In this document: positions 7,442 through 63,834 of the stretch, in pieces | Layout: the number at the start of each line of letters is the position of its first letter | How positions within the stretch are numbered: position 1 is the stretch's first letter | NCBI RefSeq assembly: GCF_902168175.1 | Contig: NZ_CABHOU010000025.1 | Location: forward strand, 310,001 to 374,000 | Length of the DNA stretch: 64,000 nucleotides | Origin: an uncultured Chitinophaga sp. | GTDB taxonomy: Bacteria; Bacteroidota; Bacteroidia; Chitinophagales; Chitinophagaceae | Reading direction: 5' to 3' | Made by a program: the position numbers and the translations under genes | The notes under the pieces: generated by a model | What the model was told of the DNA's origin: nothing | Seen by the model: the letters and a program-made list of their open reading frames with translations, nothing else | The model's database searches: none

Positions 7442-9763
7442 CTATTGTCTGATGATCTTTTTTGTATAAGTTTTACCGTCTACCAGCACCTTCACATAAT
7501 AAGTACCTGCAGGCGATTTGCTCAAATCTACAAGCGACCTGGCAGCAACGCCGCTACCATTGCTCTTTTCGCTATATACCACCTCGCCGTTTGAATTAAA
7601 AACTTTCATTTCAGATTTACCACTTTTCGATCCTGGATAGTCAACAGTGTATCTGCCATCACTTGAAGGATTGGGATAAACGCGGAGCGCTTTATTGCTG
7701 GTATTTCTGGCAGCAGCAAACTTCGCCAGGCTTTCTTTTTCTGAATCAGCCGCAGCTACCTTTTTAAGTTCGCCACCTTTCTTAGTGGTGATGATGATTA
7801 CTCCATGGTTCCCCCTGGGCCCGTAAAGGCTGGCAGCGCTTTGGTCTTTTAATACACTAATCGATTCGATGCTGTTAGCATCAATTCTCTGCAGCACGTT
7901 GGAGTCGCTCATTTTTCCGTCCACTACGTACAACACATCATGAAGACCAGATGTGCCGCGGGAGGTGATCCTGAGCGGCTGGCGGGTTGAATCAACGTGA
8001 CCCGTAAACCTTATATTCCTGCCAACAACCGTACGTACCGAATCAGGCGTAAATACGAACAGGCTCCTGGAGTGATCGTCTGCCCCGCCGGAAAAACCGT
8101 TCTGTCCGGACCTGTAGATTAAATTCACGGGTGTTTGATCGCCCGCCTGTTTGGTTTCTACGTATACATAACCTTTCTGGTTCTCCGTTTTAAGCGTTAC
8201 CGATTTAAGACGGTCGCTGCTTAACGCCCCTACTTCTTTTTCAGAAGAAGGTTTGCCATCCAGTACATATTCGTAATCTTTACCCGCGAGGCGGGTAACT
8301 GATACTGGCCGACCGGCGTTATTGCCCGCTCCAACAAATACAACGTCCTGTCCGGGTTTACTGCTAAAAGCATAAGTACCGGTAAGGCGAGATGGCGGTG
8401 CTACGCTGCTGGATATGCCGATAACTTGTCCCTGTACCGTACGTGGTCTAACACCGCTCGCCTGGCGATTGCCATAACCGGTAACCGTAACTTCCTGAAG
8501 CGGTTTACTCTCAAGCGATTTAGCGGTACCAGCTTGCGCGTTGCCGTAGCCGGTTACTACTACTTCATCCAGCCTGCTTGTAAATTCTACAGGTTCTACA
8601 ATTTGACCGGCTGTAGCTAAAAACGTCAGCTGCGCCTTTAAATATGTTGTGTCAACCTTTCCTGCCTTTTGCTGCACTTCCTGCAACATCAGTTGCAGTG
8701 GCTTTGGATTGCCGGTACTATCATTCAGTTCGATAGTAATTGTTTTACGCGGTTTTTTAGTGGTATCTGCTTTACCTGTTACTACTACTTCTTCCAGCGG
8801 TCTCTTTATGTTCTCCACTTTTACCGGTGGAATGGTATCTGTTTCTTCAACAAATAATTGTGGGATGGTGCCCTGCCCTACCGGCGCCAGTTTAACGCCC
8901 GCACGGCTAAAGTTAAGTGTGAGCACGAGCACGCTTACCATACAGCCCAGTACTAAATACCGGACCACCTGGTAACGCGATGATCGTTCTTTATTCATCA
9001 TCATAATACGGTTTTTGAGATGTGAAAAATTGAAATTGTTTGCGATGGCCGTCGCGTATGGAGCTCCACTTACTTTTAAAAGGCTGTATTGGTAAACTTT
9101 AGCGTCTACCCCCGCCCGCAGCATCCTGCGGTCGGTAATAAATTCAAGGTTTTCACGGATGGCTGTTTTCATCAGCCAGGCGCCCGGATTAAACCAATAG
9201 AAAACATTGTTCACTTCTCCCATCATCACATCGGCAGAATGCCATTCTTTAACATGTATCTGCTCGTGGCTGATTACTGCTTCCAATTCTTCGCCGGAGT
9301 GCAGGGAGGGATTTAAATAGATATTCTTAAAGAAGGAAAAAGGTGCCATCTCTCTTTTCACGATCCTCACTTTCGAGTTTCTCACCTTTGCCTCTTTCGA
9401 GGTCATATGAAACACCAGCAACGACAGCAACTGGAATAACAAACGGATCGTCATTACCGCCACACCGGCCCAAAACACGTAGGTCAGAAACGTCCATACG
9501 GTAAATTCCGCTGCCTCAGGCGCAGGTCTTAACGCGTTAAAGTCGGGCACATAATATACTACCGTTTCCAGCGCACTTCCGTTACGGTGGAAGAAATCAT
9601 TGACATCCACCAGCGGAAATACCGATGAAAACACAATTCCTGTAAGCAGGAAAAAACGGTTGAGCGTGTAAAAGGTGAGCCTTCTTAATCCCAGGCGATA
9701 TGCCAGGTAAAAGAGGCTGAGTGCCACATTCGCCTTCAACAGGTAGATAAAAAGATCAGGCAT
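7442..9763 (-). CDS. BlaR1/M56 metallopeptidase fused to plug-like and T9SS sorting domains
   Basis: A 773-residue protein. Residues 1-290 form a BlaR1/MecR1-type sensor protease: several membrane helices, a HEQIHVKEWHSAD zinc motif (HExxH) and a further helix near VLGCMVSVLVLTL. The rest is not a penicillin-binding sensor. It contains repeated VVVTGYGN-like phrases and, around residue 640, SISVLKDQSAASLYGPRGNHGV, which mimics the plug box of SusC-type receptors. The last 80 residues (VYPNPSSDGRYTVDY to GTYYVKVLVDGKTYTKKIIRQ) match a type 9 secretion type-A sorting tail. It is co-directional with blaI, 40 bases downstream. By analogy it should cleave or signal to BlaI; the ligand sensed by the new domains is unknown. 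Confidence 0.88.
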   Translation of the reverse strand: MPDLFIYLLKANVALSLFYLAYRLGLRRLTFYTLNRFFLLTGIVFSSVFPLVDVNDFFHRNGSALETVVYYVPDFNALRPAPEAAEFTVWTFLTYVFWAGVAVMTIRLLFQLLSLLVFHMTSKEAKVRNSKVRIVKREMAPFSFFKNIYLNPSLHSGEELEAVISHEQIHVKEWHSADVMMGEVNNVFYWFNPGAWLMKTAIRENLEFITDRRMLRAGVDAKVYQYSLLKVSGAPYATAIANNFNFSHLKNRIMMMNKERSSRYQVVRYLVLGCMVSVLVLTLNFSRAGVKLAPVGQGTIPQLFVEETDTIPPVKVENIKRPLEEVVVTGKADTTKKPRKTITIELNDSTGNPKPLQLMLQEVQQKAGKVDTTYLKAQLTFLATAGQIVEPVEFTSRLDEVVVTGYGNAQAGTAKSLESKPLQEVTVTGYGNRQASGVRPRTVQGQVIGISSSVAPPSRLTGTYAFSSKPGQDVVFVGAGNNAGRPVSVTRLAGKDYEYVLDGKPSSEKEVGALSSDRLKSVTLKTENQKGYVYVETKQAGDQTPVNLIYRSGQNGFSGGADDHSRSLFVFTPDSVRTVVGRNIRFTGHVDSTRQPLRITSRGTSGLHDVLYVVDGKMSDSNVLQRIDANSIESISVLKDQSAASLYGPRGNHGVIIITTKKGGELKKVAAADSEKESLAKFAAARNTSNKALRVYPNPSSDGRYTVDYPGSKSGKSEMKVFNSNGEVVYSEKSNGSGVAARSLVDLSKSPAGTYYVKVLVDGKTYTKKIIRQ

Positions 9764-9803
9764 ACAGTTTACTTGTATGGTGAAAGAATTTTTAGTTGCT
9801 GCG

Positions 9804-10160
9804 TTATTTCTTCTCTATCATACGGATGATCTCTTTCAGCTCATCCGGGCTTATATTTTTTTCCCTGGCGAAAAAGGTCACCAGTTCTTTATAAGAATTT
9901 TCGAAATAGTCTTTCACAAAACCACTCATGAACTTACGGGTGTAGTCGCCTTCTTCTATCAGTGGCGTATATTCATATACGTTACCTATTTTAGTGCTGC
10001 CCAGGTACCCCTTCTTTTCCAGGTTCTTAATGGTAGAAGCCAGTGTGGTGTATGGCGGAACAGGTTCCGCATGTGCCTCCAGGAAATCCTTCACAAACCC
10101 CTTCCCTATTTTCCAGATGGACTGCATGGCAGCTTCTTCCTGTTTGGTTAATTTTTCCAT
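9804..10160 (-). CDS. BlaI/MecI/CopY-family repressor
   Basis: A 118-residue winged-helix repressor of the BlaI/MecI family, close to the usual length of about 120. KLTKQEEAAMQSIWKIGKGFVKDFLE and YTTLASTIKNLEKKGYL give the DNA-binding domain with its recognition helix. The C-terminal half (FVKDYFENSYKELVTFFA to IRMIEKK) is the helical dimerisation part. It is first in an operon with the BlaR1-like protease. A four-half-site palindromic array sits about 30-63 bases upstream and recurs in the divergent promoter at 11.46 kb, so the protein probably represses both its own operon and that pair. This link is inferred from the shared sites. Confidence 0.9.
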   Translation of the reverse strand: MEKLTKQEEAAMQSIWKIGKGFVKDFLEAHAEPVPPYTTLASTIKNLEKKGYLGSTKIGNVYEYTPLIEEGDYTRKFMSGFVKDYFENSYKELVTFFAREKNISPDELKEIIRMIEKK

Positions 10161-10189
10161 ATAAGATGTGTTATATCACATAACGAATG

Positions 10190-10223
10190 TACGGAAGTTT
10201 CGTATATCTACGAACATTTCGTA
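10190..10223. promoter_or_regulatory. Candidate BlaI operator upstream of blaI
   Basis: Four half-sites TACGGA, TTCGTA, TACGAA, TTCGTA are separated by 3, 4 and 3 bases. The same order and spacing recur at 11449-11482. The first half-site has one mismatch to TACGAA. Confidence 0.7.
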
Positions 10224-50272: not shown

Positions 50273-50795
50273 GTGGGCTGATCGAGATCATGAAGTTAAA
50301 CAACGAATAGACTACTATGCAACTAGCTGGATTACTTGCTTAAATACGTTTATAAACATGCCGCATTTTTGTAAGAAGTAAATATCGAAAATACAACCAC
50401 AAGGTTCGGGGTTGTCCGGCTTTGTACCATACATGGATCTGAACCAACAAACAATTAAAAGTCAACAACATAATTTGGCTGCATCTATGCGAAAAAGGGA
50501 AGATCCGCTTTTAGAGCGGATCTTCCCTTTTTGTTACCCGAGATAAATCATTTTCAAACCAATTTATACAGATAATCAATAGCTTAGGCGGAATTTGATT
50601 AAATTCTGGGTAGAGAGTGGCAGCTTTTATTTGCGCCAACGCCTTTCTTCAGGCCACGATGTCTTTCAACTATAAGCTAATATTTTTATCAAATAAGCTT
50701 AAAGAATACCATTGCCTGTGGTAACAATAAGTTAATATGAATATTCATTAAGTCGCTTCCTGATTGCCTATTTTGCTACAGAATTTAAAGTCATA
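50273..50795. other. Intergenic region holding repeat copy A
   Basis: No ORF. It contains a sequence related to the 63.28-63.46-kb stretch, including a hairpin terminator and a 50-base tail (copy A, listed separately), then AT-rich sequence before the sigma gene. It marks the left side of an accessory cassette. Confidence 0.6.
50430..50590 (+). repeat. Dispersed intergenic repeat, copy A (hairpin plus tail)
   Basis: Core: AAGATCCGCT/AGCGGATCTT hairpin, then a tail ending ACCAATTTATACAGATAATC. The part before the hairpin (ACATGGATCTGAACCAACAAACAA) is a diverged match to copy C. The hairpin stem here is lengthened by AAAAAGGG/CCCTTTTT and could terminate transcription. Confidence 0.75.
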
Positions 50796-51386
50796 ATGGC
50801 AAAAGGGGAAATAGATAGATTTATGGAACTATGGTTGGAAGGCGATGAATCGGCTTTCAAAGGCGTTGTTAATCACTATTACCATCAAATGTATTCCTTC
50901 GCACTCCAAATGACCCACAACCGGGAAGATACGGAGGAATTAGTCATGAATTCATTTCTCAGACTGTGGCAACATAAAAACCGGGTCATTTATGTGTCCA
51001 GGCCCGACGAGTATCTTTTTGGTATCCTGCGCCGGGAAGTCGCGGGCTACGCCAGAAAGCGCGTATTGGTAGCAGAACCTATGGAAAATATCGAACCTGG
51101 AGAATTAGGAACAGTAGAACATCCGCAGTTTAATATAAAGGAATTGCGGGCAAAATACCAGGCGGCCCTGGACAAACTCACACCCAGACAAAGAGAGGTC
51201 TTTCAGCTCAGCAGAGAGCAGGAACTAACCCAACAGGAAATCGCCAACACCACAGGCCTATCCATAAATACCGTGGGCAACCACATGAACGCTGCGCTCA
51301 AGGTTTTTCGAAAAGAGATGAACGAATACCCCAACGCACTACCTGCGATTTTCTTTAGCTTCACAACTGCCGAACTGCTTTTCTGA
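50796..51386 (+). CDS. ECF-type RNA polymerase sigma factor
   Basis: A 196-residue sigma factor. Region 2 (about 18-85) includes ESAFKGVVNHYYHQMYSFALQMTHNREDTEELVMNSFLRLWQHK. Region 4 (about 125-180) has LTPRQREVFQLSREQELTQQEIANTTGLSINTVGNHMNAALKVFR. A hydrophobic C-terminal tail (AIFFSFTTAELLF) is typical of the FecR-controlled type. A FecR gene and an STN-containing receptor follow. Confidence 0.92.
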   Translation: MAKGEIDRFMELWLEGDESAFKGVVNHYYHQMYSFALQMTHNREDTEELVMNSFLRLWQHKNRVIYVSRPDEYLFGILRREVAGYARKRVLVAEPMENIEPGELGTVEHPQFNIKELRAKYQAALDKLTPRQREVFQLSREQELTQQEIANTTGLSINTVGNHMNAALKVFRKEMNEYPNALPAIFFSFTTAELLF

Positions 51387-51538
51387 TAATCTCCTTACTC
51401 CCACCCACATCAGGTTAATTAACATTAACAGCCCCGCCCCGTATGTTAACAATTTATGAACTCGCACTTTTCATCTAGTGGCTAACAGCGATTTTCTCAT
51501 TGTTTATAATAGATGGCATGCTGGTATGCCCGTAAACA

Positions 51539-52762
51539 ATGAATGAAATGAGCCGACCATCAAGAGAAACACTCATCCGTTACTTTAGGGGAAAATGTCT
51601 TCCGTACGAGATTGAACTGGTAGAACTATACCTTTCCATGCATACCGACAACGAATACGTGGAAGCATGTATAGCAGAAGTGTGGGACGAACTGACGCCT
51701 TCCCAATCTAATTCAGTTGACAACGATCTGGAAAAATTTAGGGCAGAACTAGACCAAAGGAAAAGAACATGGGTACAACTTCCCGCATTGGATGACCAGG
51801 AAAAGGCCCAGCCTTCTGTTTTCCTACTTCCCGCGTGGATAAAAGCTGTTGCAGCTGCCGTCATCCTTATCGCGGGTACAGCATTGGCAATTTACACTAC
51901 ACAGCTAAAGACTTCCGAAACCCAGGTTGTAAAAACAAAAGACATGTTGTCCGGAAATGACAGGGCATTACTCACCTTATCTGACGGTTCAACCGTTTCT
52001 CTTTCAGGCCAGGCAAAAGGTAAGATAGCGGTACAACAAGGATTTACGGTCGAAAATACCGGCGAGGGCGAAATCGTATACAGGTCAACAGGAGGTGACA
52101 CTGCTAGGACCAACGCTTATAACAGCATCGCTACCCCTAATGGCGGTCAGTACGTGGTGTCCCTGCCCGACGGGTCGAAAGCCCGGCTGAACGCGGCCTC
52201 TTCCCTGACCTATCCCGTTCACTTCTCTGGCAAAGAACGCCGCGTAAAGATGACGGGTGAAGTGTACTTTGAGATAGCCAAAGCCATTAACAATAAAAAT
52301 AAGCACATTCCATTCTTCGTAGAAACGGACTGGCAGGAGATACAGGTGCTGGGTACCATGTTCAATGTAAATGCCTATACCGATGAGCTCCAACAAATGA
52401 CCACGCTGGTGGAAGGCAGTGTACGACTGAAATCCAATGCTAACGGTTCCTATACAATGTTGAAACCCGGTCAACGAGCCTTGGTAGGAAATTCGGTCAC
52501 GGTTTCCGATGCCGACATGAAACATGACCTCGCATGGATAAACGGTAAATTTATTTTCCAAAGGGAAGAGCTTGGGAGCATCCTACGAAAAATCTCACGG
52601 TGGTACGATCTTGAAGTCGAATGCCCACCCGAACTGGCGAACATAAAGTTTACGGGTAAGCTTTCCCGAAACCAGCCCATCTCGGCAGTGATAAAAATGA
52701 TTTCCGCCACCAATAAAATAAACATTCAATTAAAAGAAAGGAGGATCATCGTGAAAAAATAA
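51539..52762 (+). CDS. FecR-family anti-sigma factor
   Basis: A 407-residue inner-membrane regulator. The cytoplasmic N-terminus includes SRETLIRYFRGKCLPYEIELVELYLSM. A single helix, WIKAVAAAVILIAGTALAIY, is near residues 98-118. The FecR domain has GQYVVSLPDGSKARLNAASSLTYPVHFSGKERRVKMTGEVYFEI, and the DUF4974-like end is FIFQREELGSILRKISRWYDLEVE. It should couple the receptor downstream to the sigma factor upstream. Confidence 0.93.
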   Translation: MNEMSRPSRETLIRYFRGKCLPYEIELVELYLSMHTDNEYVEACIAEVWDELTPSQSNSVDNDLEKFRAELDQRKRTWVQLPALDDQEKAQPSVFLLPAWIKAVAAAVILIAGTALAIYTTQLKTSETQVVKTKDMLSGNDRALLTLSDGSTVSLSGQAKGKIAVQQGFTVENTGEGEIVYRSTGGDTARTNAYNSIATPNGGQYVVSLPDGSKARLNAASSLTYPVHFSGKERRVKMTGEVYFEIAKAINNKNKHIPFFVETDWQEIQVLGTMFNVNAYTDELQQMTTLVEGSVRLKSNANGSYTMLKPGQRALVGNSVTVSDADMKHDLAWINGKFIFQREELGSILRKISRWYDLEVECPPELANIKFTGKLSRNQPISAVIKMISATNKINIQLKERRIIVKK

Positions 52763-52887
52763 TTAGCCACAGACATGACCTAACAAAATAGGCGGAGATG
52801 CTAGAACATCTACCGCCAGATAATTAAGGTTATTTGAAAAAATGCGCGAACAGTTTTAAAAACAACAAAAATTATTTAGACAATAAT

Positions 52888-55800
52888 ATGAAAAATCCAC
52901 TCGTGGGCAAACCCACCAGCAACAATTTTCTACACAGACCTTTCAATCAATTCATGCGTGTTATGAAAATCACCATGGTATTAATGACCTGCTTTATCAT
53001 GCAGTTGAGCGCAGCTACTTACGGACAGAAACTCACGATAAACAGACAGAGCGTTCCGCTTGCAGTTATTCTGGAAGAAATAAACGAGAAAACAGGATAT
53101 GATTTCTTTTATGATGCTGACATATTTGATGGAATGCCAAAAGTATCGCTTAATGTCAGGAATGCAGCAATTGACGAAGTGCTGTCCCTCTGTTTTTCTG
53201 ATCTACCCTTTGATTATACCATCAATAGTAAGATTGTCACCATCAGGAAGATTTCTAAAGGCGCGCTCAATGTCCCCGTCCAGCAACCCGGCCGCATCTC
53301 CGGCAAAATTATAGACGAACGCGGTGCTCCCCTTCCAGGAGCAAGCGTAAAAATTGTACAGACCAATCAGGCCGTACAAAGTAATGTAGATGGGAGCTAT
53401 AATTTTACCGTTGCCCCTGGCACTTACACCATCGAGGTAAGCTATATCTCCTTTCAGACCAAGCGTGTTACCGAAGTGGAAGTGAAAGCCGGAAAGTTGA
53501 CCAATCTCACCATCGTCATGAAATTGGCAACCAGCAAACTCGCCCAGGTTGTGATAACGGGCAACTTCAAGAAAGAAAGCACCGCAGGACTGTATGCCCG
53601 CCAGAAGAATGAAGCAGGTATCTCCAATGGTATCAGCCGGGAGCAAATAGGCGCATTGCCCGACAAGAGCGTGGGCGAAACCCTTAAACGTATATCTGGC
53701 GTGAGTACCAACGACAACCGCCGTGTGGTGGTACGTGGTATTGCCGAACGTTACAACCTGGCCATGATGGACGGTGCTACCCTGCCAAGCACCGACGTAC
53801 AGGTGCGTGATTTTGAGTTTGACATTGTGCCCAGCAATCTGGTGGATAACGTAACGGTAAGCAAAACAGCAACGCCCGATATGAGCTTCGGTTTTGGCGG
53901 TGGATTGGTACAGATCAATACCATGGCGATTCCCGACAACAATTTTACGACTTTAAACTTCGGCTACAAATATATCAATGGCAGCACCGGTAAAGATTTC
54001 CTGGGATATGGACGTGGTAAGAACGATTATCTGGGTTTTAACGACAAGAGCAGGGATCATTTTCCCGATGGGTTATTAACGTTCGGAGGCAAGTCGTTTT
54101 ACAACCCGACCAGCCCTTATAGTTCGCCCACCCAGGCAGAGCTTGACGCAGGTATGGTAGCCGTAACACCCGAAATGATTGGCGAGCAGAACAAACGCAT
54201 TGGCGGATTGGCACGTTTGGGTACACGTACCTATAAAACAATGCCGGGACAGAACTACCAGTTTAGTCTGGGGCGAATCTACAACCTTAAAAACAGCCGA
54301 CTGGGATTTGTAGGTTCTTTAAGCTACCGAAATGAGCAGTCTATTGACGACATCAGCCATTATGAACGTGGCAGATGGGAACATCTTGGTAGCCCCGTTT
54401 ACGATGTTGAAACAGGCAAAGAAAAGGACGAAAGTACCGCCAAACAATATAATTTCAACACCAGCTGGGGTGCACTGCTCAATCTGGGATGGAGTGCCAA
54501 AAACCACAAGCTTACTTTCCGAAATTTCCTTTCCCGCTCTTTTGCCAACCAGTTTTTCCGTTTGGAAGGCTTTAGCAACGACCATCCGGCAAATTATGGT
54601 GAAAATCCTGACATAAGGGAATACGACCGCCCTAAATTCATCGACCTGCTGCAGAACCGCATTAACGGCGAGCACCGTTTTGGCAATTTCGGGTTCGACT
54701 GGAGCGTGGCCCGCAACAAGATCAGCAACCTGGAGCAGGATGCTGTAGATGCCAATCTTGCGCTCTGGGAAACCATGAACGGTAAAGTGTACAGGTATTT
54801 TCCGCAGGCAACCACCAATACGGGTAATTATACGCTTACCCGCTCGGAGTACAAATACGAAGAAACCAACCTGATGGCAGAAGCTGCCGTCAAGTACAAT
54901 TTCAACGTGTTGGGACAAAAGCAACTCTTCAAGACTGGATTTCAGTACAGGGATACCAAAGGGAAATACAACTGGAATATCCTGCCCATAGGCAGTGCCA
55001 GCAGCAGCAGCAATGTACAGTACCTGCATATACAGGACTGGGCATCTCATTTGGATTTTAGCGATCCGCTAAAGGACATTTACTATTATCCCGGAGGCTA
55101 TGATGCGAATTATTATGAGGGCAAGAACAACAATCAGGCATATTATGTCATGCTGGACAACCGCCTTACCAATTGGATCAGATTGGTATGGGGCATACGG
55201 GCAGAGAGCTATGTGTACGAGAAGTTAAAAGACGGTGCTTCCGACTTTTACGGACAGGCAACCATGAACAATGCCCAAAAGGCCCGCTTTGTGGATCCCG
55301 CAACAGGCAACCTCGTGCACCGCACACTCGATGCCAGTGCCGAAGACCTTAAATGGCACTACCTGCCCTCGGCAAACCTGACACTTACACCGCTCAAAGA
55401 CTTTAACATCCGGGCCTCCTATGGCAAATCGGCCATCCGTCCGTCGCTGATCGAGAACTCTAATTTCTCCCGTTACAATTACGTATATGGTCGCATGCAG
55501 CGCAATGTGGGGGTAATTTCCACCTTGATCGATCATTACGATTTACGTCTCGAATGGTATCCCGGAGCCGGAGAAGTGATTTCGGCAGGTTATTTTACCA
55601 AACATTTTAAAAACCCCGTAGAGCTATACCTCGATATCTTTGACAGCAGCGGTTCCATTGACCTGTTTACGCAAAACTCAGACTATGCCGATGTAAGGGG
55701 ATGGGAATTTGACCTGCGCAAAAGTCTGGGCTTTATTTATCCCGACTTCAAAGTGCTGGGCGATATATATGTAAGCGGTAACCTGACCTTACAGACTTCT

Positions 55801-56382
55801 GAAGTACAGGCAAGTACATTCAAGTACGAAACAATGGGAGAGGGAAAAGATAATTACGATAACGGTTATACCTACCGCACCAAGACTCTTCTGAAAGAGA
55901 AACGTCCCTTGTATGGACAGGTTCCGGTAATATATAATTTGGGACTGCAATATGCAGGCGAACGTTTGGGAGCGAATATCGCCTTTAACCATACCGGTTA
56001 CAAAACCCTGACCGTGGGCATGTTGCCCCAATATTCGGAAAGCGAACGCCCCCGTAATCAGCTGGATGCGCAGTTGAGCTACAAGTTCCTGAAAAATAAA
56101 AAGTTGGAAACCAGGCTAAACATGAGCAACCTGCTTAACAGTGCATACCGCTTTTACAACAATTCTACTGCAACGTACAAAAGAAAGCCGGGAACCGAGA
56201 ACACAGCCATGACGGAATGGTCTGATATTTTTGAATGGCAATACGGATTTTCCAATAAATATGAAGAGGGCTATTACGAAACTTCGGAAGATGGCAAGAC
56301 CAAAAAACGCATAGGCGATACCAATACCTTCATCCGTAAGGTTGGTACTTCGTTAAGTCTGTCAGTGTCATATTCTTTTTAA
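52888..56382 (+). CDS. TonB-dependent receptor with STN domain, not SusC-type
   Basis: The ATG at 52888 (MKNPLVGKPTSNN) is preferred over the TTG in the track. About 1164 residues: a signal peptide (KITMVLMTCFIMQLSAATYGQ), an STN domain (LAVILEEINEKTGYDFFYDADIF), a CarboxypepD_reg-like domain (ISGKIIDERGAPLPGASVKI), a plug (GETLKRISGVSTNDNRRVVVRGI and DFEFDIVPSNLVDNVTVSKTATPDMSFGFGGG), and a barrel ending GTSLSLSVSYSF. There is no SusD gene; two related lipoproteins follow instead. It imports an unknown ligand, possibly a metal chelate or peptide. Confidence 0.93.
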   Translation: MKNPLVGKPTSNNFLHRPFNQFMRVMKITMVLMTCFIMQLSAATYGQKLTINRQSVPLAVILEEINEKTGYDFFYDADIFDGMPKVSLNVRNAAIDEVLSLCFSDLPFDYTINSKIVTIRKISKGALNVPVQQPGRISGKIIDERGAPLPGASVKIVQTNQAVQSNVDGSYNFTVAPGTYTIEVSYISFQTKRVTEVEVKAGKLTNLTIVMKLATSKLAQVVITGNFKKESTAGLYARQKNEAGISNGISREQIGALPDKSVGETLKRISGVSTNDNRRVVVRGIAERYNLAMMDGATLPSTDVQVRDFEFDIVPSNLVDNVTVSKTATPDMSFGFGGGLVQINTMAIPDNNFTTLNFGYKYINGSTGKDFLGYGRGKNDYLGFNDKSRDHFPDGLLTFGGKSFYNPTSPYSSPTQAELDAGMVAVTPEMIGEQNKRIGGLARLGTRTYKTMPGQNYQFSLGRIYNLKNSRLGFVGSLSYRNEQSIDDISHYERGRWEHLGSPVYDVETGKEKDESTAKQYNFNTSWGALLNLGWSAKNHKLTFRNFLSRSFANQFFRLEGFSNDHPANYGENPDIREYDRPKFIDLLQNRINGEHRFGNFGFDWSVARNKISNLEQDAVDANLALWETMNGKVYRYFPQATTNTGNYTLTRSEYKYEETNLMAEAAVKYNFNVLGQKQLFKTGFQYRDTKGKYNWNILPIGSASSSSNVQYLHIQDWASHLDFSDPLKDIYYYPGGYDANYYEGKNNNQAYYVMLDNRLTNWIRLVWGIRAESYVYEKLKDGASDFYGQATMNNAQKARFVDPATGNLVHRTLDASAEDLKWHYLPSANLTLTPLKDFNIRASYGKSAIRPSLIENSNFSRYNYVYGRMQRNVGVISTLIDHYDLRLEWYPGAGEVISAGYFTKHFKNPVELYLDIFDSSGSIDLFTQNSDYADVRGWEFDLRKSLGFIYPDFKVLGDIYVSGNLTLQTSEVQASTFKYETMGEGKDNYDNGYTYRTKTLLKEKRPLYGQVPVIYNLGLQYAGERLGANIAFNHTGYKTLTVGMLPQYSESERPRNQLDAQLSYKFLKNKKLETRLNMSNLLNSAYRFYNNSTATYKRKPGTENTAMTEWSDIFEWQYGFSNKYEEGYYETSEDGKTKKRIGDTNTFIRKVGTSLSLSVSYSF

Positions 56383-56402
56383 TTTCTTATACAATTAATA
56401 TC

Positions 56403-57140
56403 ATGAGAACAATGAAAATATTTTATGCCGTACTAACTGGTGCATTCCTGTTGGTACTGGTAGCCTGCAATAAGCGTGAGGATGATTTCTTTTATACAGG
56501 AGAGGCATTAACTGTTAAACTAATAGGTTACAACGGTAGTAGTGAGGAGTTGGAAATAAAAGTAGATACGTTCAAATTCAAACGCACTGTGTCTGCAAAC
56601 GAAACCATTAATCAAAGCGATGCCTATCTGTTTACAGATAACCAGCGTACCGCTAAGCTGACCGTCACCGAAAAGGGCACGGGTAAGCTGGTATTAGAAA
56701 GAGAATTGGAAAAAAGCGAAAAAAATGTAACGGTTAATCTCTTCTATACAAATGATGGGATAGTTCCCTACAATCCTCCACCGGTCAACCCCAATACCAA
56801 TATCGTAGGTGTTTTTATTACCAAAAACCAGCAGACAATTACTACGGCAGATATAGCTGTAACGTTATCTGGAAATGTTATCACCTTTTTAGCCCAAAAC
56901 GTTCCTCCCAACCAATGGTTCTTTTTTGAAACGGACTATATACCTACTGTTCCTGCAACGGAACGTATTCTGTTTCGCCGGGCCGGGACTACATTAGGGT
57001 ATTATCAGAATAGCACAGGTAGAAATATCTTTTCCAACTTCCCTTTATTTCCCGTAGATGGAACGAAAGGAGCGCTTCGCAGCTATATTATAACAGGCAG
57101 TACGGGAATTATAAATATCGCTGCAACCAGAGTGTTTTAA
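56403..57140 (+). CDS. Unknown lipoprotein, first of a tandem related pair
   Basis: A 245-residue lipoprotein (lipobox LVACN near residue 21). It has a first beta domain (TVKLIGYNGSSEELEIKVDTFKFKRTVSANETI), then a proline-rich NPPPVNPNTNIVGVF joint and a second domain (LAQNVPPNQWFFFETDYI). No family is recognised. It shares LxGYNxSxxxLEIxVDT and AxNVxPxxW patterns with the next gene, so they are diverged duplicates. It lies 20 bases after the TonB receptor and probably acts at the cell surface with it. Confidence 0.7.
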   Translation: MRTMKIFYAVLTGAFLLVLVACNKREDDFFYTGEALTVKLIGYNGSSEELEIKVDTFKFKRTVSANETINQSDAYLFTDNQRTAKLTVTEKGTGKLVLERELEKSEKNVTVNLFYTNDGIVPYNPPPVNPNTNIVGVFITKNQQTITTADIAVTLSGNVITFLAQNVPPNQWFFFETDYIPTVPATERILFRRAGTTLGYYQNSTGRNIFSNFPLFPVDGTKGALRSYIITGSTGIINIAATRVF

Positions 57141-57159
57141 AGTATAAAATAGTAAAATC

Positions 57160-57924
57160 ATGAACCCATATTTAAAGAATACAGCTATTATCGCTCTTAT
57201 TGCAGGTTTCTTTACCGCATGCAATAAGGATATAGAAACCACAAAAGCGGTTGCTTTTGATATTGTTGGGTATAATACCAGCAACAATGATCTGGAAATT
57301 TCGGTAGACACGGTCGTGTTTTCAAGATTTCCTATAGCGGCAAATTCAGTGGTTAGCTTTGGGAAGTCGTACACCTATCCATCGGTCAAACGTGAAGCGC
57401 AGATCAGTGTTAAGGACAAGCAGTCGGGCAACGAGGTTTGGAAACAAACCGTTCGCTTGTCGGATGCAGAGCTGGAGCAGTTCTATCCCTTTGTATGGCT
57501 GGATGGACAGGTATTGGCGGTCAATCCCCCAACTGCCGATGCCAACACCAATAAAATTGGCTTCTATGTGCACTATCCGCAAAGCAACGATCCAATTGAT
57601 ATTTTTATTAAGAACGAAGCCGGACAGGCGGCCTACTTCGCAAAGAACGTAACACCCGGCACCTGGGTGTATAGCGATTACGTCACACCTGAGGGCTTTT
57701 TCCAAAACCCGAACGGTGACTTTTACATTCATTGTACCAAAGCCGGTACAACTGATAGCTGGGCATTTGACAACAATGAGGCGAAAAGTAAAGTGTCTAA
57801 CAATAATAACGGTACTTTCTTTCCGTTGCACCACACCCAAAAGGGCAATGTGCGCTCCTATTTTATTACACCCGGTATGTACCAAATGGAGTTGATACGG
57901 TTGTTTAAAAAGCCACGGAATTAG
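57160..57924 (+). CDS. Unknown lipoprotein, second of a tandem related pair
   Basis: A 254-residue lipoprotein (lipobox FTACN near residue 20) with the same two-domain plan as its neighbour: DIVGYNTSNNDLEISVDTVVFSRFPIAANSVV, a NPPTADANTNKIGFY joint, and FAKNVTPGTWVYSDY in the second domain. Function unknown. The distance of 19 bases implies one operon. The pair may take the place of SusD as receptor lids or be substrate-binding lipoproteins; this is inference. Confidence 0.7.
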   Translation: MNPYLKNTAIIALIAGFFTACNKDIETTKAVAFDIVGYNTSNNDLEISVDTVVFSRFPIAANSVVSFGKSYTYPSVKREAQISVKDKQSGNEVWKQTVRLSDAELEQFYPFVWLDGQVLAVNPPTADANTNKIGFYVHYPQSNDPIDIFIKNEAGQAAYFAKNVTPGTWVYSDYVTPEGFFQNPNGDFYIHCTKAGTTDSWAFDNNEAKSKVSNNNNGTFFPLHHTQKGNVRSYFITPGMYQMELIRLFKKPRN

Positions 57925-58008
57925 TTGTATGAAAGCCATTGGCCAGCGGGAGCATCTTGTTGGTCTTGCAAATCTTTAATTAACATAACGGGCTTTAGTA
58001 ACAAAAAA

Positions 58009-58102
58009 GAAGATCCGCTCTGAGAGCGGATCTTCACTACCTGTTACCGGGGATGAAGCGTTTTCGAACCAGTTTATACAGATAATCAATTCCTTAGGAC
58101 GA
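58009..58102 (+). repeat. Dispersed intergenic repeat, copy B (hairpin plus tail)
   Basis: The hairpin GAAGATCCGCTC/GAGCGGATCTTC is followed by CTGTTACCGGGGATGAAG and TTTTCGAACCAGTTTATACA GATAATCA-like sequence, matching copies A and C. It lies 84 bases after the last gene of the sigma/FecR/receptor cassette and can serve as its terminator. Confidence 0.78.
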
Positions 58103-58122
58103 AATAATGCACTAAAAAACGT

Positions 58123-58153: not shown

Positions 58154-58206
58154 AACTCCCGATAATCGGGTTAATTTTTGAATTAAATCCGACAAGTAAA
58201 AGGTGG

Positions 58207-58380
58207 TTAGCGCTCTTTGCGAACCCCTTTGAATGGCTTGCCGTCAGCTTTTTGATCCATAAACTTTCCAGTTGAGGTATCCCTTTTCACAAAGGTCTTT
58301 GTTTGTGGATTGTATGTCTGACTCCTTCCAGTTACTTGACCGTTGCGGTGTCCATCTCCGGACTTTCCGTTTCTAGCCAT
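58207..58380 (-). CDS. Small basic protein of 57 residues (conserved-looking)
   Basis: An ORF below the track cutoff. It reads MARNGKSGDGHRNGQVTGRS, then QTYNPQTKTFVKRDTSTGKF and MDQKADGKPFKGVRKER. It is highly charged, with no membrane helix, and has the Gly/Lys/Arg-rich, TYNPxTKxFVKRDxxTGKF style of short conserved Bacteroidota proteins I have seen without a defined function. It ends near a strong terminator and has its own leader of about 70 bases. Location is inferred to be cytoplasmic, and a nucleic-acid role is only a guess from composition. Confidence 0.7.
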   Translation of the reverse strand: MARNGKSGDGHRNGQVTGRSQTYNPQTKTFVKRDTSTGKFMDQKADGKPFKGVRKER

Positions 58381-58468
58381 GACTAAAAATTGACATCATG
58401 ATGGCAGCTATTTATTACTGAGGCGCTTGCCGCCCAAGTGACGATTTGCAAAGATTAAGCAAATAGCC

Positions 58469-58637: not shown

Positions 58638-59804
58638 TCACGTCCCGGCTTTCACCTGCGCAGTAACACGGTTTGCAGATGACAATTTGTTCGCCGGCTT
58701 TTTCTTCTTCTTCTTTCTACCCCACCATACCATAAAACCGGTAACCGGCAACGATGCCGAGATAAGCGACGCAAAGAACATCGCAATACGCCCCGGCAAC
58801 CCCGCAATGCCGCCTACATGGATGTCGTAGTTCATCCGCGCCACTTTTTCCGCAAGGGTTGCATCGGCATATTTGCCCAGGTACGGCACTGGTATCTCTT
58901 TACCGGTATACTGATCGAAGTAGCAGTAGTCCGCATTGTGGGACTGTTGGCTGCTGGGATAGGCACGCGCCACTATGGGAGCTGAGTCATTGATGGGCAG
59001 GGATAGGGCAAGAACGGCAGCATCGTGGTACCGCTGCCTAAACTGATCAAACACCTGGTTGATGGTGGTGCTGTCTTTTGCAGGCGCATTCCTGTCAGAA
59101 TTGACGGCGATGGCACCAGGCCTGGTTTTCCCACCGCTGAACACCCAAAATTCTGCCTGCGCCATCCACTGGAAGCTCCACACCAGGCCCGTTAAGGCGG
59201 CGAACAATACGATCCAGCTGGCATAGAAGCCTAACACATTATGCAGGTCATAGTTGAGGCGTTTAGGGGACGTGTCCCATTTAATGCGGAAGCTTGTTTT
59301 TCTACGCGCCTTGTTGCGGGGCCACCACAGCACGATCCCGCTAACCAGGATGACCAGGAAAACAAGGGTGCCGTAGCCGACTACAAGATGGCCGATATCC
59401 TGGGGCAGCCAGAGGTACATATGCCCATCGATGATAAAGCGGAAGAACTCGTCCTTCCGGTCGAGCACCTTTTCCACGTTACCGGAGTATGGATTCACAT
59501 ATACGTTGAAATAGTAGTAAGGCTTTTTTTGATAGAACTGCACCACGGGCGCTTTGCCCGCCTCTTCATACAGGATGCGGAACGCCTTTTTGCCGTTCAT
59601 GGCCTGCTCTGCGACGGCGCGTATATCCGTCACCGGTTTATACGGTTTGTTTTCCACCGTTACGAAACGATAGGGCTGCGTAAATTCGGATATTTCGGGT
59701 TGCCAGGCATAAATAGCGCCGGTAATGGAAATAATAAATACAACGATTCCTGAAATGAGGCCCAGCCACAGGTGCAGCCAGCCGAAGATCTTTTTCATGT
59801 TCAT
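58638..59804 (-). CDS. PepSY-associated transmembrane protein (iron uptake)
   Basis: A 388-residue inner-membrane protein. It has a first helix (LHLWLGLISGIVVFIISITGAIYAW), a PepSY-like periplasmic region with FRILYEEAGKAP and YFNVYVNPYSGNVEKVLDR, then helices VVGYGTLVFLVILVSGIVLWWP and FYASWIVLFAALTGLVWSFQW, and a C-terminal helix before a Lys-rich tail (WWGRKKKKKKP). Such proteins are often linked to siderophore receptors and may reduce ferric siderophores in the periplasm. It lies 70 bases after a siderophore receptor gene, with a hairpin between. Confidence 0.88.
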   Translation of the reverse strand: MNMKKIFGWLHLWLGLISGIVVFIISITGAIYAWQPEISEFTQPYRFVTVENKPYKPVTDIRAVAEQAMNGKKAFRILYEEAGKAPVVQFYQKKPYYYFNVYVNPYSGNVEKVLDRKDEFFRFIIDGHMYLWLPQDIGHLVVGYGTLVFLVILVSGIVLWWPRNKARRKTSFRIKWDTSPKRLNYDLHNVLGFYASWIVLFAALTGLVWSFQWMAQAEFWVFSGGKTRPGAIAVNSDRNAPAKDSTTINQVFDQFRQRYHDAAVLALSLPINDSAPIVARAYPSSQQSHNADYCYFDQYTGKEIPVPYLGKYADATLAEKVARMNYDIHVGGIAGLPGRIAMFFASLISASLPVTGFMVWWGRKKKKKKPANKLSSANRVTAQVKAGT

Positions 59805-59820
59805 ACGCGATATGCAATAA

Positions 59821-59859
59821 CGTAAAATGAAGACACCTGCCTGGTATCTTCATTTTACG
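59821..59859 (-). terminator. Hairpin between siderophore receptor and PepSY genes
   Basis: A perfect 13-bp stem (CGTAAAATGAAGA with TCTTCATTTTACG, 13-base loop) lies between the two genes. No long T run follows on the minus strand, so it may lower rather than stop read-through. Confidence 0.5.
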
Positions 59860-59874
59860 CCGGTTGGCCAATGT

Positions 59875-62211
59875 TTAGAATTTGATGGTGAGATTCACTG
59901 CCCAGTTACGTGGCGGCTGTGGCTCGCCCCAGGGGCCCCAGTACATCTCGTTGGTAATATTGTCCAGCTTCACCCCTACGCGGTAACCCGGACGGTCGTA
60001 GAAGATCGTGCCGTTAAACACAGTATAGGCGGGGAAGTAGGTGAGGTTGTTATTGTCGAATACGATGTCTCCGTTGTACACCGCACCGGCGCCAATACCC
60101 AACCCGGATACTTTTCCGCTGTTGATGCGGTAGCTGATCCACGTGTTGGCCGTGTGTTTTGCACCCGATGCCGGCGGACGCTTGCCTACAAAATCTTTCG
60201 CCTTGGTGATCTCTATGTCATTGAAGCCATAACCAGCCAGGATGTTGAGGCCGGAAATGGGATTGGCAATCACCTCCGCTTCAAAACCTTTACTTTTCCA
60301 GGTGCCATCCTGGTAATAGATGGTAAGGTCGGTATTATCCTGACGGATTTTGTCTTTTACTGCAATGTCGTAAGCACTCAGTGTTACGCTTAATTTACTT
60401 TTCAGGAGGTCGGCTTTAATACCACCTTCCCACTGGTTCGCCTGCTCCGGCTTAAACACATTGCCGTTACGGTCTACCTGTGCGGAATAGCTAAAGCCGT
60501 TCTGGTAATTCGCGAATACAGACAACTGATCTTTCACCACCTGGTACACTGCACCGAATTTAGGGGAGAAAGAAGACTTGTTGTAGTTGCCGGTCGTTTT
60601 GCCGGTAGCCAGGGAATAAGTTCCTTTAGCATCTACTCTATCCCAGCGCACACTTGCCATAACGAGTAACTGATCGGTAAGGTTCACTACGTCGGACACG
60701 TAAATGCCGTAACGGTCTGTATGGCTTTTGAAGTAGTTCGTGGGTTTCATACCTGCCAGGCGCCTGTCTACATCTTCTCTCATTAAGATAGGCGTTGTTC
60801 CGGTGGTAGATATTGTATCGTGCATGTAGTTCAGGATGTAAGTGGGCTGGGTAATATCCGCCAGGTAGTCGGCGCCCATCAGTACGCGGTGTTTGATAGC
60901 ACCGGTGTGGAACTCACCATTCAGGTTCTGCTGGATCTGGATGGTGTTGTAGTTATGGCTGTACTTTTGTACGCGCCTGGACAAGGTTTCGCCGGTGCCT
61001 AACAGCGTACCGCTGAACTGGTACTGCTGGCGGGCATTTACGCCGCCGGTAGAAAATATGGTGGTCGTATTCCAATTGCTGTTGATCTTATAGTTCATGG
61101 TAGCAAACAGGTTATAACCGGGGAATACGGACTCCAGGTCGTTGGAATAGAACGTGCGTTTGTAGTATTTCGCCATCGCGGCTTTATAGTCGGCCGGAGC
61201 ACCCAACGGGTTGATGTAGGCGATAGCCTGTGTACCAGCGTTGCGGAACATTTCCACATCTATGAGGAACGAAAGGCGGTCGCTCGCTTTATAAGCGAAA
61301 GAGGTTGCCAGGAAGTAGTTACGCCTGAAACCTGCTTCCTGGAAGCTCTCCTGTCCCCAGCGACCAAGGTTTACACGCAGCAGCGCGGTTTTGTCTTCGT
61401 TCAGCGGTGCGTTGATGTCTGCCGTGATGCGGTTCAATCCCCAGCTGCCGGCCGTGAAGTTGAGGTCTGTCCGGAAGGTTTCGAAAGGTTTTTTGGTCAC
61501 CCTGTTTACCAGGCCGCCGTAAGATACCGCACCGCTACCAAACAAAGTACCGGAAGGGCCTTTCATCACTTCGATGCGCTCCAGGTTGGCCATGTCTACC
61601 GTAATCAGCTGGTTGGCCACCATGCCGTTGCGGATGTAGTTAGCAGTACGGAAACCACGGATGATGGTAGACGTACGGCCGTTACTCACCGTTTCGGTAG
61701 AGTTGACGCCGGCCACGTTTTTGATCGCGTCTTTATATTCAAGGATGCCCTGTTCTTTAATGATCTCGGAGGTGACGATGTTGTATACCTGCGGGTTTTC
61801 CAGGTTTTTCAGCGGCATACGGGCCACGTAGTCACTCTCTTTTTTAGCGAATTTATTTTTGCCGCTGGCGATGATCACTTCCTGGAGCGTTTGCTGCGAA
61901 GCTTTCAGCTGGAAGTTTTGCTCCACGGTTTGACCGGCTGTGATGTTCACCGTAAAACTGATCATATCATGCCCTGCCACGAATACTTCTGCCAGGTAGG
62001 TGCCGGGCGCCACGTTCCGGATAACATAAGCGCCGTTTTCGTTGGTAACGGTTTGCTTGCGAGCGTCTTTCAGGCGAACGCCTACGCCTGGTACTTCCGT
62101 ACCGTCTTCCGCCGTAACGCGGCCTTTGATCGCGCCGTAGTTAATTGTCTGTGCAGTCGTTGTCCTGATCATGACGAGCATGAAGAGGCTTATAATGGTA
62201 ATTACTCTCAT
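59875..62211 (-). CDS. TonB-dependent siderophore receptor
   Basis: A 778-residue outer-membrane receptor. The signal peptide ends RTTTAQ. A CarboxypepD_reg-like domain (IKGRVTAEDGTEVPGVGVRLKDARKQTVTNENGAYVIRNV) precedes the plug (TSTIIRGFRTANYIRNGMVANQ, MANLERIEVMKGPSGTLFGSGAVSYGGLVNRVTKKP), and the barrel ends NWAVNLTIKF. The plug phrases match the siderophore class. With the PepSY protein it forms an iron-uptake pair. A TAACTTTG -7-like box lies about 49-56 bases upstream; no clear Fur site is recognised. Confidence 0.95.
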   Translation of the reverse strand: MRVITIISLFMLVMIRTTTAQTINYGAIKGRVTAEDGTEVPGVGVRLKDARKQTVTNENGAYVIRNVAPGTYLAEVFVAGHDMISFTVNITAGQTVEQNFQLKASQQTLQEVIIASGKNKFAKKESDYVARMPLKNLENPQVYNIVTSEIIKEQGILEYKDAIKNVAGVNSTETVSNGRTSTIIRGFRTANYIRNGMVANQLITVDMANLERIEVMKGPSGTLFGSGAVSYGGLVNRVTKKPFETFRTDLNFTAGSWGLNRITADINAPLNEDKTALLRVNLGRWGQESFQEAGFRRNYFLATSFAYKASDRLSFLIDVEMFRNAGTQAIAYINPLGAPADYKAAMAKYYKRTFYSNDLESVFPGYNLFATMNYKINSNWNTTTIFSTGGVNARQQYQFSGTLLGTGETLSRRVQKYSHNYNTIQIQQNLNGEFHTGAIKHRVLMGADYLADITQPTYILNYMHDTISTTGTTPILMREDVDRRLAGMKPTNYFKSHTDRYGIYVSDVVNLTDQLLVMASVRWDRVDAKGTYSLATGKTTGNYNKSSFSPKFGAVYQVVKDQLSVFANYQNGFSYSAQVDRNGNVFKPEQANQWEGGIKADLLKSKLSVTLSAYDIAVKDKIRQDNTDLTIYYQDGTWKSKGFEAEVIANPISGLNILAGYGFNDIEITKAKDFVGKRPPASGAKHTANTWISYRINSGKVSGLGIGAGAVYNGDIVFDNNNLTYFPAYTVFNGTIFYDRPGYRVGVKLDNITNEMYWGPWGEPQPPRNWAVNLTIKF

Positions 62212-62390: not shown

Positions 62391-62438
62391 TAATAAGAAA
62401 GCACAACAAACCTTACCGTTTGTTGTGCTTTCTTATTA
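62391..62438. repeat. Perfect 21-bp hairpin next to decayed transposase
   Basis: The arms 62391-62411 and 62418-62438 are exact reverse complements with a 6-base loop. AAGCACAACAAAC/GTTTGTTGTGCTT is the core. It could be a bidirectional terminator or insertion-sequence-associated hairpin 44 bases before the transposase remnant. Confidence 0.7.
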
Positions 62439-62481
62439 TAGCATATTGATAATCAAATGTTTGATTTGTATAATTTATACT

Positions 62482-62935
62482 ATGCAAGACAAGAAAGATT
62501 ATCAGGAGAGACTGTTCATTCAGTTCCTGCTCTCCGACTACGTTCCTCAAGACAATTTTTACAGGCAATTGAAGTCAATAGTTTATTTTAGCTTCTTATA
62601 TGCATCAACTGCTAAATATTATGGAAGTGAAGGGCAGAAAAGTATAGACCCGGTAGTTTTTATGAAGTTGATGTTGGGGGGATTTAGAGAATCTAAACAG
62701 CGATCGAAGGATTATCTCCACTTCTAGGATGCGCATAGATATTCTGTATTTCATAGGTTATGATTAGATGAAGAACTTCCCTGGCATTCCATGCTTAGTC
62801 CCACTCGTCAACTTTATGGAGAAGAAGAGTTTATGACTTTATTTAAACTGGTATTGAAACAATGTATGGATAAGGGTTTGATATCAGGTAAGCGTCAGGC
62901 GGTCGACAGTGTATTTTTTTTCGGCATTGTTTGCG
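62482..62935 (+). pseudogene. Decayed IS1182-like transposase, N-terminal remnant
   Basis: Three frames together spell an IS1182/DUF772-type N-terminus. Frame one: MQDKKDYQERLFIQFLLSDYVPQDNF, then YYGSEGQKSIDPVVFMKLMLGG. Frame two: ENLNSDRRIISTSRMRIDILYFIGYD. Frame three: DEELPWHSMLSPTRQLYGEEEF and ISGKRQAVDSVF. So there is a frameshift before ENLNS and another after GYD, and the gene is cut after about 150 of roughly 500 codons. It is inactive. The two ORFs in the track (62362 and 62791) are pieces of it. Confidence 0.82.
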
Positions 62936-63216
62936 GGTATTTCAACCGGCCAATACTTGTTTCTTCTCTTTAATTTGATACGGATGTGGACAGGGCAACA
63001 ATCGCTTTTATTTCGTCTTTTTCGCCAGTTTAAAATGGGCGCAAATGAAGGAGTAAAACATTGCCTCTTAGTTTAATCTTGAGCGTATTTTTTGTGGAGG
63101 CGGGAGGTCTTGTGGAAGGGAAAAAATGATTGAGCTTTGGGCAGAACCAATGGTAGAACAACCCGCGATTTTCGGCGAGTTTCGGCGGAGGTGGCCTTGA
63201 ATGGAGGTAAAATAGA

Positions 63217-63280: not shown

Positions 63281-63461
63281 CGTTGTAATACCTGTTACCA
63301 AGGATGGATTCGAACCACCAAACAACTGTAAATCAACAATAAACATCAGACTGCACAATAGCAAAAAAAAGAAGATCCGCTCTACGAGCGGATCTTCACC
63401 ATCTGTTACCCTTGACGATTTTTTTTCGAACCAATTTATACAGATAATCAGTAAGTTAAGC
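63281..63461 (+). repeat. Dispersed intergenic repeat, copy C, with tRNA-tail-like segment
   Basis: It comprises GGATGGATTCGAACCACCAA (minus strand GGTTCGAATCC, a tRNA T-arm consensus), a spacer, the GAAGATCCGCTC/GAGCGGATCTTC hairpin at 63371-63397, then TTTTCGAACCAATTTATACA and a GATAATCA tail. Copies A and B match it at the hairpin and tail. No tRNA 5' half was found. Confidence 0.72.
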
Positions 63462-63834
63462 TGATTTCTCTCGTTACACTGTTAGGCAAGACACCCCTTC
63501 AGCAATCATAAAGAGTCATAGCTCCGGCACTCCGCTTTCCGCTGAATGGCATTGTGAGCTTTGTGACTACGGTGCTAAGGGAGAATAATGAAGTTTTAGG
63601 CTACACGATGCAGAAAACCTAAAAGCAGCGAAAAACATATTCCTATTTTGGTGAGTTTATTATTGGAGGGCTGAAAATATTTTTTTGCATTTTAGTACCA
63701 ATAGCACTTTATGTTGCTTTTAAAAGGTATAAAAAAACGTAAGGTCGTATTTCATCTTATTCGCACCCATCAATTATTTCGCTTTTTTTATTGCCATCAA
63801 ACCCATTGTATTTTTCACCACTCATTTCGGCTGA

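Follow-up and report, generated by a model that had tools for sequence, protein, structure and literature searches.

How did a five-gene sigma/FecR/receptor/lipoprotein module come to stand between direct repeats in the genome of an uncultured Chitinophaga sp. (G000)? The window, that is, the whole stretch of 64,000 nucleotides analyzed here, spans C25:310001-374000. The module, which lies entirely on the plus strand, encodes an ECF sigma factor (50796..51386; Pfam Sigma70_r2/r4), a FecR anti-sigma regulator (51539..52762; Pfam FecR, FecR_C), a TonB-dependent receptor with an STN signalling domain and an uncertain start codon (52834..56382; Pfam STN, CarboxypepD_reg, Plug), and two small proteins with lipoprotein-like N termini and no Pfam match (56403..57140, 32% identical to its neighbour, and 57160..57924). 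The last protein has relatives in 29 of 79 genomes of the genus, encoded at loci other than this one, with at best 48% identity outside its own genome.

The preliminary description had placed repeat copies A and B on either side of this module in the same orientation, and a copy C at 63.4 kb near a tRNA-tail-like stretch. These copies are real: 50489-50595, 57999-58105, and 63361-63467 are identically oriented and align over 107 bp without gaps at 78% identity (82% in the best local alignment). The tRNA-tail-like stretch is genuine as well, and an intact tRNA-Gln(CTG) gene with the same terminator as the repeats lies outside the window (C25:383840-383911, minus strand). The array is read on the minus strand behind this tRNA and includes a fourth copy, D, just past the window edge. 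No known RNAs were returned by an Rfam scan of the window.

Each repeat is a hybrid of an element end (RE), a displaced tRNA 3′ tail, and a terminator. Read in the direction of the tRNA, a conserved A/T-rich end (TTATTGATTATCTGTATAAACTGGTTCGAAAACATTCC..) is followed by the acceptor strand of the tRNA 3′ end (GGGTAAC at Gln, CTGGGCAC at Leu) and by a terminator hairpin, whose stem usually matches that of the local tRNA (GAAGATCCGCTC at Gln, AAACCCGCTC at Leu). Because stem and acceptor are locus specific, the first half of the repeat is assigned to the incoming element and the second half to the displaced tRNA tail. On the minus strand of the window, a displaced tRNA-Gln terminator hairpin of an older unit beyond A (50496..50531) lies next to RE(A), the right end of cassette A-B (50544..50587; profile match at C25:360544-360587). 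The left end of cassette A-B is a tRNA-Gln-type hairpin with a T-run like that behind the intact tRNA (58003..58038), next to RE(B), the right end of cassette B-C (58053..58097; profile match). Copy C comprises a terminator hairpin (63364..63397) and RE(C), the right end of cassette C-D, which runs past the window (63415..63459; profile match). A second T-loop-like motif (GGTTCGAATCC) lies ~105 bp behind the T-loop of the tRNA (L012:18740-18840), and similar left ends are found at copies A and C and in contigs C106 and C42. At copy C this motif (63302..63330, minus strand) is the place where cassette B-C formerly joined the tRNA; homology to the tRNA-borne cassette of Chitinophaga sedimenti begins at window position 63317.

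With up to 3 mismatches allowed, a 28-bp segment of the repeat occurs at 10 places in the 6.65-Mb genome and nowhere in a reversed control; the repeat is therefore neither a chance match nor a common operon terminator. An RE profile built from sequence alone found 12 sites in four same-strand arrays, namely copies A to D behind tRNA-Gln(CTG) on C25, two and four sites behind tRNA-Leu(CAG) genes on C42 and C106, and two sites on C72, where a tRNA-Leu(CAA) gene is 21 kb away. A known tRNA-Gln or tRNA-Leu gene stands in front of three of the four arrays. RE sites are present, often clustered, in 28 of 79 Chitinophaga genomes, whereas a family draw of 200 genomes gave only noise-level matches outside the genus; one exact pattern searched in IMG/VR was not found. 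In the fetched loci of relatives, RE sites lie downstream of tRNA-Leu genes with CAA, CAG, and TAG anticodons. An ARAGORN “tRNA-Lys” at locus L112 resembles a decayed tRNA-Leu and was left out of the target count.

The RE is coding. At all 43 sites examined, the opposite strand reads V-P/T-x-x-x-x-x-S-N-(Q/H)-hydrophobic from the core, with a stop after 18 to 47 codons (mostly 18 to 28); in the window, the plus strand at RE(A) holds these serine-integrase tail codons (translation VTRDKSFSNQFIQIINSL), and the translations at RE(B) and RE(C) are VTGDEAFSNQFIQIINSL and VTLDDFFSNQFIQIISKL. Codon-position entropies of 0.65/0.39/1.14 make position 2 the most and position 3 the least conserved (permutation P of 0.003 to 0.005). 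A large serine recombinase (LSR) that is not located at a tRNA (L191) ends in VPSSGRYSNQRMYQK and a stop, an RE-type tail, and at several borders in relatives the 3′ remnant of an LSR gene continues in frame into an RE tail. The RE tail therefore corresponds to the LSR C terminus, which puts attP within the 3′-terminal part of the integrase gene; in elements that are intact, the hairpin then consists of integrase codons in antisense, and many borders are 3′-terminal relics of decayed integrase genes. In the repeat of the preliminary description, the hairpin is thus the displaced tRNA terminator, and the conserved tail is where the coding sequence of a serine integrase ends. The idea that the tail is a degenerate tRNA gene body was abandoned once the RE was found to be coding. 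At L033, where a frame at 8436-10211 meets a tRNA-Leu gene at 10083-10167, the integrase codons by the core also form the tRNA terminator hairpin on the other strand, so that a single segment is at once integrase coding sequence, tail of the tRNA, and terminator.

Two LSRs and three tyrosine recombinases are encoded in the genome. The LSRs of C72, L100, and L108 have Resolvase, Recombinase, and Zn_ribbon (zinc-ribbon) domains, and the C72 reading frame ends on top of the tRNA-Leu(CAA) gene. The second LSR, a distant one, lies ~300 bp from the tmRNA gene (C64 locus L038:7882-10323). In 27 of the 30 LSR homologue loci fetched from the genus, the 3′ end adjoins a tRNA gene on the opposite strand, and 25 of 27 further loci at the order level have a tRNA or tmRNA; overall, 52 of 57 sampled loci from the order Chitinophagales adjoin a tRNA or tmRNA 3′ end. 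In each of 24 loci examined, the LSR frame runs into the tRNA without a stop. Of 28 close LSRs, 13 have an RE within 45 kb on the opposite strand and are on its tRNA side (0.23 expected), and no RE was detected near the other 15; none of 42 distant LSRs is placed in this way. RE sites are present in 15 of 17 genomes with a close LSR homologue (Fisher P = 6e-7); these association counts are uncorrected for phylogeny. The family is 22 to 25% identical to the best phage and plasmid recombinases listed. It differs from the ccr family and has only a distant likeness to phage and plasmid LSRs. Its placement at tRNA and tmRNA genes and near RE arrays makes it the most likely source of the recombinase behind the arrays.

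Most cassettes lack an integrase. In the tRNA-Gln array, none of the cassettes from A-B to D-tRNA contains an integrase gene, such genes being present only in some arrays at other tRNAs. Likewise, a search with LSR queries that covered the tRNA-Gln intervals of G000 and a part of the G168 interval (L101) found no LSR. We infer from the LSR-type RE tails at tRNA-Gln that the same family acted there.

The spacing of the half-sites is also informative. From TTCGA to the acceptor, tRNA-Leu has a spacer of 7 nt, and the RE has one of 12 nt at 34 of 35 sites in relatives; from the T-loop motif to the acceptor, the distance is 8 nt in tRNA-Gln and 13 nt in its RE. The acceptor is outside the RE search profile, although the spacing still follows in part from the alignment of RE sites. 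In serine integrases, the ZD motif occupies positions 11 to 19 in attB and 16 to 24 in attP (PMC3783163), and a corresponding 5-bp shift is found here, at the left half-site only. With the GG common to both tRNAs taken as the central dinucleotide, which is our choice, TGGTTCGAA would sit at the ZD positions; the exact crossover point is thus a presumptive one. A tyrosine-type crossover in the T-loop core was ruled out by the wrong sequence after TTCGAA in every RE and by the 5-nt longer spacer, and a XerCD/dif-type site was weighed by eye and dropped.

We compared the tRNA-Gln locus of G000 with those of G168 and C. sedimenti (G281). All three share synteny both upstream of the tRNA and in the distal flank (C25:341.6-346.4 kb), with 73 to 80% backbone identity in the comparisons with G000, while the interval between tRNA-Gln and copy A is wholly different in both relatives. 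A search with LpxL as a distal marker was confounded by paralogues. The sigma/FecR cassette is absent from the locus in G168 and G281, and no empty tRNA site was seen in the genomes compared. The RE at copy A has an ortholog in G168, making A the oldest border. Cassette B-C lies directly on the C. sedimenti tRNA-Gln (joint ..TCCAGGTCGGGTAACAG|GTATTACAACG) with 96 to 97% identity, against 73 to 80% for the backbone, and has moved between species with one border at the tRNA. At the tRNA-Leu(CAG) locus, C106:32938-34353 matches C. sedimenti 2924543-2923119 at 87.6%; the match starts at the tRNA and stops at an RE border, and the cassette is the first of the array in G000 and internal in C. sedimenti.

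The module is one of four cassettes stacked behind tRNA-Gln, and cassettes measure 0.85 to 7.5 kb. Cassette B-C carries a PepSY-TM protein and a TonB receptor (58638..62211, minus strand; Pfam), C-D a subtilase, and the D-tRNA interval HEPN- and Mrr-type defence-like genes. The latter interval (L012:14151-18503; 40% GC) encodes a HEPN protein, unknown 445-aa and 229-aa proteins, and an Mrr-type NTPase/nuclease, a candidate defence system; a cassette at a tRNA-Leu (L031:18185-19965) holds a candidate defence pair of a DUF262/NsnA-like protein and a 209-aa protein. A small basic open reading frame near copy B (MARNGKSGDGHRNGQVTGRSQ..; window 58200-58390, minus strand) belongs to a segment that C. 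sedimenti lacks in its version of the cassette. The transposase remnant that had been reported near copy C is present (62430-62937) but marks no module border: it falls in ~0.5 kb missing from the otherwise 96 to 97% identical C. sedimenti cassette and is therefore a local insertion, probably acquired (or lost in C. sedimenti) after the two copies split. In a codon/GC check, the composition of A-B is only mildly atypical (44.8% GC versus 48 to 50% in the flanks).

Taken together, the module is very probably one cassette of a tandem array that grew by one site-specific integration after another at the tRNA-Gln 3′ end, most likely through an LSR. A circular cassette would recombine with the tRNA, its left end giving the tRNA a new 3′ end and terminator, while the old tail and terminator would be shifted behind the right end of the cassette; each event would leave one repeat, the newest closest to the tRNA. 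The LSR, whose gene holds attP within its 3′ end, would upon integration have its tail, VPSSGxFSNQ(F/I/L/V/M).., swapped for an antisense-tRNA read-through. Recombination of attP with attB by these enzymes, and mobilization in trans of the cassettes that lack an integrase, are presumed; such cassettes were probably moved by an integrase encoded elsewhere or are decayed integrase elements.

Could the repeats be ordinary terminators or a REP-like repeat, with gene content differing by unrelated rearrangement? They do contain a hairpin and a T-run, and the preliminary description had named a plain terminator at hundreds of operon ends, or a cassette kept in synteny by relatives, as the findings that would speak against integration. 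Neither was found, and the restriction to 12 same-strand clustered sites, the tRNA genes in front of three arrays, the hybrid tRNA-tail structure, and the fall of transferred-cassette borders on repeats leave this explanation with hardly any credence. The proposal, made in the preliminary description, of repeated integration at one tRNA-associated site gains support from the hybrid junctions, the variable interval, and the B-C transfer.

The arrays might instead be the work of tyrosine integrases, the usual tRNA-targeting enzymes (PMC4383910), whose genes have since been lost, the serine integrases being coincidental neighbours. The G168 Gln interval does hold a truncated tyrosine-recombinase-like open reading frame, which has no catalytic-domain match; yet the three tyrosine recombinases of G000 all lie outside the intervals, the RE encodes the LSR tail even at tRNA-Gln sites, and the LSR-RE proximity far exceeds expectation, which makes this account improbable. 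More weight, although we still consider it unlikely, is due to the idea that only the founding elements were site specific and that array growth and cassette swaps reflect RecA-dependent homologous recombination between junction repeats. The ~80% identity of the junctions and the scarcity of integrases in the cassettes fit such a process, and serine integrases reportedly need a helper factor to recombine any pairing except attP x attB (PMC3783163). Against it, the junction repeats are short and diverged, and the transferred cassette B-C starts at the 3′ end of the tRNA, which otherwise only integration uses. Serial site-specific integration remains the preferred reading.

Tycheposons, like the arrays described here, are tRNA-anchored cargo islands, and they use tyrosine recombinases. 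The tyrosine recombinases of G000 comprise only XerC/D-like proteins and one phage-type protein, and none was found in its tRNA-Gln intervals. Integron cassettes and CALINs, as described in PMC11389934, where tycheposons are also named, similarly form same-orientation tandems with a repeat at each border and many without an integrase; here, however, there is neither IntI nor attC, the cassettes are multigenic, and the borders are tRNA-like and coding. In Islander/TIGER tRNA islands (PMC4383910, PMC12424338), an intact tRNA at one end and a displaced 3′ fragment in the same orientation at the other likewise mark the ends, and tandems are known. Both marks are found here, with a serine rather than a tyrosine integrase; an integrase on the island is missing from A-B to D-tRNA, and since most cassettes lack one, the Islander filter would miss them. 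The cassette chromosomes of Staphylococcus and Enterococcus, SCC and ECC (CcrAB LSRs at the rlmH 3′ end; PMC6222049), share an LSR, variable cargo, junctions made of direct repeats, and the restoration of the target gene at its 3′ end, but here the target is a tRNA, the integrase is not CcrA/B, attP is inside the integrase gene, and arrays have up to five right ends. In mycobacteriophage integration-dependent immunity (PMC9262239), attP also lies in a coding gene and integration at a tRNA alters the protein C terminus, although that gene is a repressor served by a tyrosine integrase rather than the gene of the serine integrase itself.

A serine integrase family at tRNA and tmRNA 3′ ends throughout the Chitinophagales contrasts with a database statement of 2015 that serine integrases were not known to target tRNA genes (PMC4383910), although later descriptions may exist outside the open-access literature. 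Their known tRNA targets make these enzymes attractive integration tools for Bacteroidota. Tentatively, the family may be specialized on tRNA and tmRNA genes, the tail swap switching its activity or stability and the tail codons at borders letting the integrase choose among right ends, so that multicassette segments could move between tRNAs and species. Island finders that need an on-board integrase will miss the cassettes without one, although the cargo of several includes defence-like genes or, in the case of the window, modules for iron-type uptake.
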